64,000 nt of DNA from Synechococcus sp. MVIR-18-1. GTDB taxonomy: Bacteria; Cyanobacteriota; Cyanobacteriia; PCC-6307; Cyanobiaceae. Positions 2,439-58,512 of this stretch are shown here, piece after piece. The DNA lies in contig NZ_CP047942.1 of assembly GCF_014279835.1 (NCBI RefSeq), forward strand, positions 1,054,001 to 1,118,000. Direction: 5' to 3'. Below the pieces are notes generated by a model. That model had not been told where the DNA came from. It did not search any database and saw only the letters and a list, made by a program, of their open reading frames with translations. The position numbers and the translations under genes were made by a program. Within the stretch, counting starts at the first letter, position 1. Each line of letters starts with the position of its first letter.

Positions 2439-2807
2439 TTAGTGGCCTACGGATGGTTCGGAAGCTTGATGAGAACGGCGTTCACCGTGACTCCAAAACG
2501 CTTCCAGGTCGTAATAGCTGCGTTCTTGAGATTGAAGGATATGCACGATCAATTCGCCGTAATCGAGCAGGGCCCAACGGCCCTCGTTCATCCCTTCTTT
2601 GCGCAAGGGGAGTCGTTTGGCATCTTCTTCCAGACGATCTTCAACCGATCGGGCCATTGCCTTGACCTGAACGTCGCTCTGACCGCCTGCAATCACTAAC
2701 CAATCGGCAAGGCTTGAAACCTCGTCAACCCGAATCAGCTGGATATCTACACCTTTGCGATCGTCGCAAGCTTCCGCTGCCAGCTCAGCCAGCTGTTCAC
2801 TATCCAT
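2439..2807 (-). CDS. rsfS: Ribosome silencing factor RsfS
   Basis: The 122-residue RsfS/Iojap protein binds ribosomal protein L14 and blocks subunit joining when nutrients are scarce. The family core is visible: ACDDRKGVDIQLIRV, the LADWLVIAGGQSDVQVKA segment, and the terminal WALLDYGELIVHI plus YYDLEAFW. A longer frame opens at 2879, but ATG 2807 is preferred because it gives the usual N-terminus and overlaps the upstream DUF3318 stop by 8 bases (ATGGATAG), a typical coupled start. Confidence 0.9.
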   Translation of the reverse strand: MDSEQLAELAAEACDDRKGVDIQLIRVDEVSSLADWLVIAGGQSDVQVKAMARSVEDRLEEDAKRLPLRKEGMNEGRWALLDYGELIVHILQSQERSYYDLEAFWSHGERRSHQASEPSVGH

Positions 2808-20620: not shown

Positions 20621-20833
20621 ATGGTCATTAGTAGTGACCCGCAACCCAAGCCGTCTGCTGCTTTGCTTGCCTACTTGCAGGGCAAGCTTGGATTGAGTGC
20701 CAGTGCCATCAATCTTGGCCTGCGGCAAGCTGAATTAGAACAGGCTCCCCTGCCAGTGGTGCTCTGGAGTTTTGGACTGCTCAGCTTGCAAGGTTACCAA
20801 GATGTTTTGGACTGGCAGCAAGCTCAGGAGTAG
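20621..20833 (+). CDS. DUF2949 family small protein
   Basis: The 70-residue soluble protein reads [48 protein letters not shown], matching the cyanobacterial DUF2949 family of unknown function. ATG 20621 is preferred over the TTG at 20612. The 3' end overlaps the convergent apt gene by 10 bases. Confidence 0.78.
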
Positions 20834-21348
20834 TGAATCAGAGATTCAACCTGGATGTCATCGGGAAGACGCCCTCGTCCACCTAAAGCTGTGAGTTCCA
20901 CGATGAAGGCGCAGCCCACCAGTTGACCGCCAGCCTTCTTGACTAAATCGGTTGTGGCCGAGGCAGTCCCGCCTGTTGCTAGCAGGTCATCAACAATCAA
21001 AATTCTTGGTTCGTCTCTCATGGCATCGGCATGAATCTCGAGGCGATCCGTCCCGTATTCCAGGGCGTAATCAATTCCGTAGACCTGCCCGGGGAGTTTT
21101 CCTGGTTTGCGTACTGGAACAAATCCCAGCTTCTTCTGCGTTGCCAAACCCATTCCCACAATGAAACCCCTGGCTTCAATTCCCACAATCAGGTCTGGAT
21201 TCAACGAATCGCATAGCGTTCCAAGACGATCCATGACCTCTGCCCAGCCCACGGGATCACGCAACATCGGGGATATGTCTCGGAAGAGAATTCCTGGTTT
21301 TGGAAAGTCTGGAATATCTTGAATGTAATGACGAAGATCCAAGGACAT
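20824..21348 (-). CDS. apt: Adenine phosphoribosyltransferase
   Basis: The 174-residue Apt salvages adenine to AMP using PRPP. Seen: [20 protein letters not shown] at the N-terminus, [20 protein letters not shown], the acidic [10 protein letters not shown], and the PRPP loop [17 protein letters not shown] near residue 120. The length is typical. The ATG at 21348 is the only early start. It is convergent with the DUF2949 gene. Confidence 0.97.
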
Positions 21349-36960: not shown

Positions 36961-37054
36961 ACTTGCACAGTGCTCGCCGGAAGACAGAATTGCCGTGTGA
37001 GGAGGGCTTCTTCACGGAGTGGAAACAAGGCAACACGCCCAAAGAGAAGCCGAG

Positions 37055-37084
37055 AAACCCTGCCTTTGGCGGGGTTTTCTTTTG
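37055..37084 (+). terminator. Rho-independent terminator
   Basis: AACCCTGCC and GGCGGGGTT pair with one T-G wobble around a TTT loop, followed by TTCTTTT on the plus strand. It lies about 180 bases after the interrupted nuclease gene and could end that transcript or a separate small RNA. Confidence 0.7.
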
Positions 37085-50559: not shown

Positions 50560-50595
50560 CTCTTTGTTAAATTGAGACGTCCTATTCACCCCGCA

Positions 50596-50682
50596 CACCT
50601 GTCCGTTTCGGGTGCTGGACGTTGTGCTCTGAGTTTTTGCTCACCACACGCCATACCTGACAGGTGGAGGCGAACCCGAAAC
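50596..50682 (+). promoter_or_regulatory. Structured rpsB leader with interleaved helices (pseudoknot)
   Basis: In the leader before rpsB, CACCTGTC (50596-50603) is fully complementary to GACAGGTG (50659-50666), and GTTTCGGGT (50605-50613) to ACCCGAAAC (50674-50682). The order A-B-A'-B' gives two crossing helices of 8 and 9 perfect base pairs. S2 autoregulates rpsB-tsf through a leader in gamma-proteobacteria (t44). A comparable control here is inference. Confidence 0.7.
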
Positions 50683-50694
50683 CCCTAAACAAAC

Positions 50695-51411
50695 ATGGCT
50701 GTTGTCACTCTCGCCGAGATGATGGAGGCTGGTGCCCACTTTGGTCACCAGACCCGTCGTTGGAACCCCAAGATGTCGCGCTACATCTACTGCGCGCGCA
50801 ATGGAGTTCACATTATTGATTTAGTGCAGACAGCTGTCTGCATGAATAACGCCTACAAGTGGGTGCGCACAGCTGCGCGGAGCGGCAAGCGTTTCCTCTT
50901 TGTTGGTACCAAGAAGCAAGCGTCTGAAGTTGTGGCTCAAGAAGCCCTTCGCTGCGGATCGTCGTATGTGAATCAGCGCTGGTTGGGCGGAATGCTCACC
51001 AACTGGACCACGATGAAGGCCAGGATTGATCGACTTAAAGATCTTGAGCGGATGGAATCGAGTGGTGCCATCGCTATGCGCCCTAAGAAAGAAGGTGCGG
51101 TTTTGCGTCGTGAACTCGAGCGACTTCAGAAGTACTTGGGTGGTCTTAAGAACATGCGTCGGATTCCCGACGTCGTGGTGCTTGTAGATCAGCGCCGTGA
51201 AACCAACGCAGTCCTCGAGGCTCGCAAGCTCGATATCTCTTTGGTTTCGATGTTGGACACCAACTGCGACCCCGACTTGTGTGAGGTTCCTATTCCTTGC
51301 AACGATGATGCGGTCCGTTCGATTCAGTTGGTGTTGAGCCGTTTGGCTGACGCGATCAACGAAGGACGCCATGGCGGTCAGGACGGCCGTGGCGATGATG
51401 GCCAGGGCTGA
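50695..51411 (+). CDS. rpsB: 30S ribosomal protein S2
   Basis: The 238-residue S2 has the canonical [20 protein letters not shown] start, [22 protein letters not shown] and [19 protein letters not shown]. Length is normal with a short glycine-rich tail. It precedes tsf by 85 bases in the conserved rpsB-tsf order. The structured leader ends 12 bases before the ATG; GGAGG lies at 50666-50670, too far (24 bases) for a normal ribosome binding site. Confidence 0.99.
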
Positions 51412-51496: not shown

Positions 51497-52153
51497 ATGG
51501 CGGCCGTTTCAGCCAAGCTGGTTAAAGAACTGCGCGACAAAACCGGCGCAGGGATGATGGATTGTAAGAAAGCCCTGGGAGAAACCAGTGGTGATACGAC
51601 GAAAGCGATCGAATGGCTTCGTCAGAAAGGCATCGCAAGTGCCGAAAAGAAATCAAGTCGTGCAGCTGCAGAAGGAGCGATTGGCAGTTACATCCACACG
51701 GGTGCTCGCGTGGGAGTACTGCTAGAGCTCAACTGTGAGACTGATTTCGTCGCCCGTGGTGATCTCTTTCAGGGATTGCTTCGCGACGTTTCGATGCAAG
51801 TTGCAGCCTGTCCAAACGTGGAATACGTCAGCACCGACGAGATTCCTCAAGACATTATTGATCGTGAGAAATCGATCGAAATGGGTCGCGATGATCTGGA
51901 TGGCAAGCCAGATCAGATGAAGACCAAAATTGTCGAAGGACGTATCGGCAAACGCTTGAAGGAATTGTCCTTGTTGGATCAACCTTTCATTCGTGACAGC
52001 TCAATGTCTGTGGCCGATTTGGTCAAGGAAGTGGCTGGAAAAATTGGTGAGAATGTCAGGGTTCGCCGCTTTACTCGATACACCCTTGGTGAAGGCATTG
52101 AAATCGAGCAAGTCGACTTTGCTACGGAAGTGGCATCGATGACAAACAGCTGA
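51497..52153 (+). CDS. tsf: Elongation factor Ts
   Basis: The 218-residue EF-Ts recharges EF-Tu with GTP. Seen: [19 protein letters not shown] with the TDF motif later in [13 protein letters not shown], and the C-terminal domain ([16 protein letters not shown]). The length is that of the short cyanobacterial form with an internally reduced coiled-coil domain. The next gene starts 2 bases after its stop. Confidence 0.98.
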
Positions 52154-56663: not shown

Positions 56664-58512
56664 GCATCTCTTGAACGGTGGCATCACCAAGTTTACTGAT
56701 GTGTTCGCCAAAGCCCCGCCGCCCGCCAGCTTCTTTCCAACTTTGAAGCAAGGGTTCGATCGTTGCTTCAAGGTCCTCAAGAGGCATCTTCTGTAGGAAC
56801 GGACGGGCTAACTGCTGCAAATTGGCGCTCCCACCAAGCCAGAGCTGATATTGATTGACACCGCTTCCTACAAGGCCAAGTTCAGCCATATATGGACGGG
56901 CGCACCCATTCGGGCATCCGGTCATACGAACAAGAATGGATTTTTTAATCTCTAGCTGCTTGAGCTGGGAATCCAGTCTTTCGAGAACATCGGGAAGAAC
57001 TCTTTCCGATTCAGTAACGGCTAGTCCGCAGGTGGGTAGGGCTGGACAGGCGAGGGCATGCCGTACGAGGGGAGAAACCTCTGCTGGAAGTTCAAACCCT
57101 AATTCGGACAACTCACTTTTGATGGATGATTTTTGACTAGAACCAATATTGCAGAGGAGTAAGTCTTGATTTGGGGTGAGTCGTATTTCTAGTTGATATC
57201 TATCAACAATGGAGCGAATCCCTTCCTTAACAGTTCCTTCCAGCCGGCCACACATGAAAGGGAGTCCCACAAACCATAGACCTGGCTTTTGGCGATGCCA
57301 GCCTAGATAATCCATTAATTTTGCAGGCGGTTCCTGAATTAAACTTTTGATATCCTTTTTAAAATAGTCCTTGATCAAGGTTTCGCGGAACCATTGAATC
57401 CCACGATTGTGCAAAAGATATTTCATGCGAGCATGTTTTCTTACTTCGCGATCTCCATGATCTCTTTGCAACGCCATGATTGATTGCAGGAGGTCAAATA
57501 TATTCTCAGCCTCTACATAACCCAAGGGATCTGCAATTCGTGCAAACGTATCTTCTTGATTATGCGTTCTTCCTAGGCCTCCACCCACATAAACATTGCA
57601 CCCGCGCATACTTCCGTTCTTGTTTGTGAATAGAACGAGCCCGATGTCTTGTGTGAGTAGGTCAACTGAGTTGTCTCCGGGTACGGTGACAGCAACTTTA
57701 AATTTCCTAGGAAGGTAAGTATCACCATAAATTGGTTCATCCTGGCTTCCGGAAAATATCCCTTCTTCGAATTGCCTTTCTCGGGCTTGCTTGACAAGTT
57801 TTGCAGGTTTAAATCGGTAACTAAGGTCACCATCAACCCACATGTCTAAGTAAGAACCTTCAGCCGCTTTGGGGCTTAGCAGGTCAGCAATCTCGTCAGC
57901 AAGTTTTCTGGCAGCTGGGTATCCATTGTTTTCAAATGGTGCTGCTGGTGCCATAACGTTTCTATTGATATCACCACAGGCGGCTAAAGTAGAACCCAAA
58001 TTTTTAATGATCGTGCCAATGACTGTTTTAAGGTCGGATTTCGGGATGCCATGCATTTGAAAGGCTTGGCGTGTAGTGATGCGTAGTGTTCCGTTTCCGT
58101 ATTGATTAGAAAGGTCGTCCAGAGCCGAAAAAAGTTGTGCCGGAACTCTTCCGCCTGGATTTCTAAGGCGAAGCATCATCTGCCAACACTTAATTTTATC
58201 CGTTTTTCTTAATTCTCGATGATTCTGTTGGTAACTCCCATGAAACTTCAGTAGCTGAACTGCATCTTCACTAAAGCGAATCTCTTCATTGCTCAGCTCT
58301 GTCAATAACGGTTCTCGAAGATGCCCGCTGTAGAGCTTCCGCTTTTCAGCCTTAGACAGAGCTGTGTCAATCGATTCTGTAGGTATTGAAGGGCCATCAA
58401 GCTTCCGATCGCGCCCAGCTTCTTGCGTCCCTGAGGTTGTCGTCAAACCTTCGTTCACGGATTCAAGGGATAGGTCTTTTGAAACTAGCGAAGCGGCTTC
58501 CAATACAGTCAA
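56647..58512 (-). CDS. sir: Ferredoxin-sulfite reductase
   Basis: The 621-residue enzyme reduces sulfite to sulfide with six electrons from ferredoxin, using siroheme and a 4Fe-4S cluster. The cluster ligands lie in CPALPTCGLAVTESER and RMTGCPNGCARPYMAELGLV near residues 480-530. Siroheme-contact segments (GTLRITTRQAFQMHGI, RNVMAPAAPFEN) are present. No ATG precedes the conserved part; TTG 58512 or a start further in must be used. glyS starts only 20 bases away on the other strand. Confidence 0.95.
   Translation of the reverse strand: MTVLEAASLVSKDLSLESVNEGLTTTSGTQEAGRDRKLDGPSIPTESIDTALSKAEKRKLYSGHLREPLLTELSNEEIRFSEDAVQLLKFHGSYQQNHRELRKTDKIKCWQMMLRLRNPGGRVPAQLFSALDDLSNQYGNGTLRITTRQAFQMHGIPKSDLKTVIGTIIKNLGSTLAACGDINRNVMAPAAPFENNGYPAARKLADEIADLLSPKAAEGSYLDMWVDGDLSYRFKPAKLVKQARERQFEEGIFSGSQDEPIYGDTYLPRKFKVAVTVPGDNSVDLLTQDIGLVLFTNKNGSMRGCNVYVGGGLGRTHNQEDTFARIADPLGYVEAENIFDLLQSIMALQRDHGDREVRKHARMKYLLHNRGIQWFRETLIKDYFKKDIKSLIQEPPAKLMDYLGWHRQKPGLWFVGLPFMCGRLEGTVKEGIRSIVDRYQLEIRLTPNQDLLLCNIGSSQKSSIKSELSELGFELPAEVSPLVRHALACPALPTCGLAVTESERVLPDVLERLDSQLKQLEIKKSILVRMTGCPNGCARPYMAELGLVGSGVNQYQLWLGGSANLQQLARPFLQKMPLEDLEATIEPLLQSWKEAGGRRGFGEHISKLGDATVQEMLKISN

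Follow-up and report, generated by a model that had tools for sequence, protein, structure and literature searches.

A predicted crossing-helix leader of rpsB in Synechococcus sp. MVIR-18-1, a cyanobacterial form of the rpsB motif related to the E. coli t44 leader

The analysis covers a stretch of 64,000 nucleotides from Synechococcus sp. MVIR-18-1, referred to as the window, in which an open reading frame for ribosomal protein S2 was identified as rpsB and is preceded by a promoter-like element and by a leader containing two crossing helices. The genes and the promoter-like element are as follows.

50695-51411, + strand: rpsB, 30S ribosomal protein S2 (TIGR01011, E 4.3e-98)
51497-52153, + strand: tsf, elongation factor Ts (TIGR00116, E 2.5e-64), the next gene on the same strand and presumed to form an operon with rpsB
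50565-50573, + strand: extended -10-like promoter element TGTTAAATT (pattern TGnTAnnnT), with a predicted transcription start near 50580

All 112 leaders of the window's group (defined below) carry the pattern TGnTAnnnT in their upstream 60 nt, as do 48 of 54 leaders from other cyanobacteria; it mostly ends 19-26 nt ahead of helix A, and its frequency in shuffled sequences was 0.05-0.08. The extended -10 element is thus conserved upstream of strand A, and therefore the whole structure should be transcribed. The predicted promoter lies before all helices; the start site itself, near 50580, we infer from this element, and a literature search for a mapped rpsB transcription start returned nothing. 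Between the promoter-like element and the start codon, the leader comprises the following parts.

50592-50595, + strand: flank CGCA, unpaired and conserved; relatives mostly have CRCA, and the proteobacteria examined CACA
50596-50603, + strand: strand A of helix P1, CACCUGUC, pairing with 50659-50666 at 8 of 8 positions, with compensatory events on the 157-leader tree
50605-50613, + strand: strand B of the predicted pseudoknot helix, GUUUCGGGU, pairing with 50674-50682 at 9 of 9 positions, its inner pairs GGGU/ACCC being invariant in 157 of 157 leaders
50616-50653, + strand: hairpin P3, variable, within the loop that joins B to A' (predicted fold of -13.9 kcal/mol for 50614-50658)
50659-50666, + strand: strand A' of helix P1, GACAGGUG, the complement of A, supported by covariation
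50666-50670, + strand: GGAGG, a conserved element of the A'-B' linker and not a Shine-Dalgarno sequence, 24 nt from the AUG and at the same place in other bacteria
50674-50682, + strand: strand B' of the predicted pseudoknot helix, ACCCGAAAC, the complement of B, supported by conservation

The two helices of the original prediction, A-A' of 8 bp and B-B' of 9 bp in the order A-B-A'-B', are perfect at these positions, and B' ends 12 nt before the rpsB ATG at 50695, as had been read from the window. The accompanying argument that such pairing is unlikely to arise by chance holds in part. When the 135-nt leader was dinucleotide-shuffled 3000 times, two crossing perfect helices, each of 8 or more pairs, arose in only 3 shuffles; across the 64 kb they were found in 5 of 2556 segments of 135 nt (both strands), at three sites, and are unusual yet not unique. 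The two further sites, at about 20701-20850 and about 58251-58385, carry crossing perfect 8-pair helices. Rarity in a single sequence being short of unique, comparative evidence therefore decides. Folding energy was dropped as evidence for the structure, the nested minimum-energy fold of the leader being no better than those of shuffles (z -0.76). B-B' was absent from the nested minimum-energy folds, which come from a program that can neither draw nor score pseudoknots; the P1 and P3 scaffold plus helix B sums to -41.2 kcal/mol, with no pseudoknot penalty, as against -36.3 for the nested fold. In the latter, the GGGUG of strand B pairs with UACCU at 50652-50656, just before A', a site at which most leaders of the window's group carry CCCUG or ACCUG, and this segment may act as a competitor of B'.

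Leaders of relatives were fetched via S2, which was found in 366 of 400 genomes of the window's family. The window's group denotes this family together with 80 named loci whose S2 is 91-100% identical and whose titles are mostly Synechococcus, Prochlorococcus, Cyanobium or unnamed cyanobacteria; leaders were read at 110 loci and parsed at 106, the other four being cut by contig ends. One contig titled as a gammaproteobacterial MAG (L005, NYVG01000013.1) encodes an S2 98% identical to that of the window and is probably a mis-binned Synechococcus contig. A further 60 regions were added, 59 from outside the window's family, and 59 of the 60 were readable. Read by eye, these added leaders share a common order of a CRCA-like flank, A, B, P3, A', a GAGG-like linker and B', with degenerate leaders among them at L183, L204, L205, L206, L212 and L218. 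In the anchored rows examined, A is separated from an 8-nt B by 0-4 nt (L204 has an insert) and the segment from B to A' measures 11-138 nt. In the window's group, every one of the 25 distinct block types allows all nine B-B' pairs, and the ninth and outermost pair is G-C in each; outside this group the ninth pair forms in 13 of 53 leaders and the next one in 34 of 53.

A first covariance model, R1, built from the window's group only, matched 101 of 291 phylum genomes at E up to 1, with only 7 matches at E below 1e-4 outside the window's family, and was replaced by R2, built class-wide from 44 cyanobacterial leaders. R2 matched 167 of 175 genomes of the window's class, which we take to be Cyanobacteriia (E up to 0.1), and its ten best matches in the class all lie directly upstream of the S2 gene. 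Eight class genomes gave no match, of which three (G667, G686 and G708) show the element by eye; G721, likewise without an R2 match, had no S2 match either. Searches of other classes of the phylum gave no confident match (best E 0.0088). Within the window's own genome, a single second match was returned at E up to 10 (20.6 bits, E 0.031); it lies inside a 361-codon reading frame and was taken as chance.

Covariation was assessed on a tree built from 157 distinct leaders, of which 7 had their anchors moved and 5 were typed by hand. Branches on which both partners change yet stay paired were counted as compensatory events, with 500 simulations as the null. Helix A gave 40 such events, where the simulations averaged 4.5 and never exceeded 12, and slid registers gave 0-1. 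Seven of its eight pairs show changes on both sides among the 44 class-wide leaders, as do four of the five basal pairs of P3; among 43 aligned leaders of the window's group, helix A is compensated in 4 of 8 pairs and helix B is invariant. Examples of compensation in helix A include CACUUG/CAAGUG in L035 and CAUCUGAC/GUCAGAUG in the small-genome group g18. On the same tree helix B gave 5 events, where the null averaged 1.9 and peaked at 6, with 3 events when its register was slid by one, and its inner four pairs (GGGU/ACCC) never vary in the 157 leaders. Of the covariation anticipated for both helices, that of helix A is strong, while helix B is conserved within cyanobacteria and weakly covarying, short of proof by covariation. 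Because compensation in helix B is weak within the class, the case for it is made by its invariance and by the different sequences, read by eye, that stand there in other phyla.

Invariant inner pairs and a count of compensatory events not above the null maximum would also be expected if function lay in helix A, P3 and the conserved unpaired stretches alone, B and B' being protein-binding sequences complementary by accident. We regard this as quite unlikely, given that B and B' stay complementary where their sequences differ: in the deviant cyanobacterial leaders L205, L212 and L218 (CUACGGGU/ACCCGUAG), in L175 (AUCGGGU/ACCCGAU), and in other bacteria. The core is CGGGU/ACCCG in cyanobacteria and, by eye, GGGGU/ACCCC in three gammaproteobacteria (E. 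coli, Aeromonas and Catenovulum) and CCGGU/ACCGG in four of five alphaproteobacterial leaders (Sinorhizobium, Shinella, Methylobacterium and Paracoccus). In Sphingomonas the core is unclear by eye, and Bacillus and Acetoanaerobium show only GGU/ACC. The full complement of nine possible pairs throughout the window's group likewise argues for a true B-B' helix.

The likeness to the t44 leader of E. coli noted in the original prediction, which had left open whether the two elements were independent or shared, was borne out. The Rfam t44 model aligns to the window in the same register, at 16.7 bits and thus under its cut-off of 44. In the reverse direction R2, built from cyanobacteria only, picks up the E. 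coli leader where t44 lies, with 26.7 bits (E 2.1e-7 in 1.2 kb), corresponding to an E of about 8e-4 when scaled to the whole genome by our own scaling with its rough calibration. Among 13 rpsB regions from outside the cyanobacteria, R2 matches five, in each case at the leader, namely those of three gammaproteobacteria (E. coli, Aeromonas and Catenovulum) and two alphaproteobacteria (Sinorhizobium and Shinella); no match was obtained in the other eight (Bacillus, Acetoanaerobium, Sulfurovum, Sphingomonas, Methylobacterium, Paracoccus, Arthrobacter and Phocaeicola). The five matched regions are the same as those above the Rfam cut-offs, the gammaproteobacterial ones for t44 and the alphaproteobacterial ones for RF01815; below the cut-offs, Bacillus scored 29.3 bits with t44 and Methylobacterium 29.7 bits with RF01815. 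The R2 matches across phyla include letters outside the helices, namely CACA, GAGG and the A before ACC, and GGAGG stands with the same letters at the same place in the leaders of E. coli, Aeromonas, Catenovulum, Sinorhizobium, Shinella and Bacillus. Since matching unpaired letters would not be needed for convergence on a fold, this comparison of sequences argues that the cyanobacterial S2 leader is homologous to the E. coli t44/rpsB leader, as one ancient shared element. An independent origin in cyanobacteria was rejected on the basis of the shared unpaired sequences and the R2 matches in gamma- and alphaproteobacteria.

Alongside the register, the window and the E. coli leader (RF00127) share the unpaired CACA before A and the GAGGC and AACCC after A'. 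They also share the gene pair rpsB-tsf, rpsB being presumably followed by tsf in E. coli. They differ in the core, GGGGU/ACCCC in E. coli, and in a Shine-Dalgarno-like GAGG located further downstream there; furthermore, S2 repression has been shown in E. coli, according to a review, whereas for the window it is proposed by homology and position. The rpsB motif (RF01815) was described by Meyer et al. 2009 (PMC2704228) with P1, P2, P3 and a pseudoknot, with Cyanobacteria listed among its carriers, P2 absent or very short in Cyanobacteria, and five pseudoknot pairs predicted outside Firmicutes. The window agrees with this motif in its position directly upstream of rpsB (often rpsB-tsf), in a long stem P1 backed by covariation, and in a variable P3 with no P2. 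It also agrees in a pseudoknot between J2-3 and the strand after P1, which here is a predicted fold whose complementarity is kept, with weak in-class covariation; it differs in having nine perfect pairs instead of the five predicted. These comparisons identify the element as the cyanobacterial form of the published rpsB motif, already known apart from lineage-specific details.

By their own cut-offs, the element of the window is outside both Rfam families. RF01815 had no match on the window and no match above its curated 40 bits in 78 class genomes (best 28.5 bits), its best score among nine cyanobacterial loci being 32 bits; 13 sub-threshold matches were found in the class, 8 of them on rpsB leaders. 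RF00127 gave no match above its curated 44 bits in 59 phylum genomes, with E. coli as control at 83.5 bits. Two other RNA elements scored above their cut-offs: a Cyano-1 RNA (RF01701) at 36991-37055 (+ strand) of the window, with 57.7 bits, and a glutamine riboswitch (RF01739) at 2473-2529 (+ strand) of L159, with 43.3 bits, in the same 3-kb locus as the rpsB of that distant cyanobacterium.

The suggestion that the structure covers the only GGAGG as a Shine-Dalgarno sequence did not hold. GGAGG at 50666-50670 overlaps A' by a single base, the rest of it being part of the A'-B' linker; it was ruled out as a Shine-Dalgarno sequence by its distance of 24 nt to the AUG, by its conservation as a linker and by the situation in the group. 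A Shine-Dalgarno match was defined as at least 4 nt of AAGGAGGU at 3-14 nt from the AUG. All 54 cyanobacterial leaders from beyond the window's group have one, which begins 5-11 nt downstream of the base that opens B', whereas none of the 112 leaders within the group does. Another recruiting feature would be needed at these start codons, and the leader could mainly be a translation enhancer or standby site at which the pseudoknot or GGAGG recruits S1 or the 30S subunit, control by S2 being absent or secondary in cyanobacteria. A review describes pseudoknots as high-affinity targets of S1, and both GGAGG and the CRCA flank are conserved though unpaired. This role is nonetheless unlikely, as the homologous element precedes E. 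coli rpsB, where repression by S2 is reported, and as the element is tied to rpsB, the sole other R2 match in the genome being attributed to chance.

Autorepression by S2 is instead considered the best explanation, because of the homology and the position of the element: the cyanobacterial rpsB leader motif would probably allow S2 to limit its own synthesis and that of EF-Ts through the folded pseudoknot. In this model, S2 present in excess over 30S subunits would bind the folded pseudoknot, probably aided by S1 as happens in E. coli, and the S2-bound form would block 30S loading, leading to less S2 and EF-Ts. In cyanobacteria beyond the window's group, a Shine-Dalgarno sequence begins where B' ends and would be hidden by the block; within the group, where this sequence is absent, the block would consist of a stable 9-pair helix held 12 nt before the AUG, a region occupied by the initiating 30S subunit. 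When little free S2 is present, the leader would open, possibly into an alternative A-B hairpin, and be translated. In a review, E. coli S2 is described as repressing rpsB-tsf with the help of S1, and the ribosome binding site as lying outside the operator; direct occlusion would thus not be the general mechanism. Several points count against autorepression, namely the weak covariation of helix B, a nested fold without B-B', the missed Rfam cut-offs and the failure of R2 in 8 of 13 regions. The leader could also act by transcription attenuation or by RNA processing or stability and not by a block of initiation, in keeping with one terminator-like site at 50610-50629 and with the annotation of the E. 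coli element as a small RNA (tff, T44). We judge this very unlikely: 0.5 terminator-like sites are expected in shuffles of the region, the site spans the end of B and the variable P3, its U run is changed in near relatives such as L003 and L088, and B' stays within 7-15 nt of the AUG throughout the window's group, which points to initiation.

The open state of the autorepression model may correspond to the following predicted structure, which excludes both pseudoknot helices.

50596-50614, + strand: alternative hairpin of 50596-50601 with 50609-50614, 6 pairs and a 7-nt loop, the minimum-energy fold of 50580-50616 (-7.8 kcal/mol)

At least 5 of the 6 pairs between positions 1-6 of A and the last five bases of B with the following G are possible in 155 of 157 leaders, and of 166 isolated 5' segments, 163 fold as this hairpin with 4 or more pairs. 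Positions A3-A5 are always pyrimidines, and all 30 changes there on the tree are transitions, compared with 33 transitions and 24 transversions at A6-A8 (Fisher p 6e-6). The transition bias and the A-B pairing suggest a leader able to form either hairpin or pseudoknot, in two states. The pyrimidine bias in A could also come from a purine requirement in A'; by eye, that purine pattern is broken in A' of E. coli, Aeromonas, Catenovulum and Sinorhizobium, which favours the hairpin without proving it. We tentatively propose, as a possible though doubtful extension, a two-state switch in which the A-B hairpin would come first, forming once B is transcribed, and would be displaced by A' and B' together into the pseudoknot that S2 would stabilise. 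The picocyanobacterial group would then have lost the Shine-Dalgarno sequence and fixed the pseudoknot helix at nine pairs, with control no longer acting via Shine-Dalgarno hiding. The two-state pairing of strand A may be a new feature.

For the genomes searched, annotation by RF00127 and RF01815 at their cut-offs would leave out the cyanobacterial element. A 2024 review still calls the mechanism of S2 repression unclear, and the lack of a Shine-Dalgarno sequence beside an intact predicted pseudoknot in the window's group constitutes a natural experiment on that mechanism.
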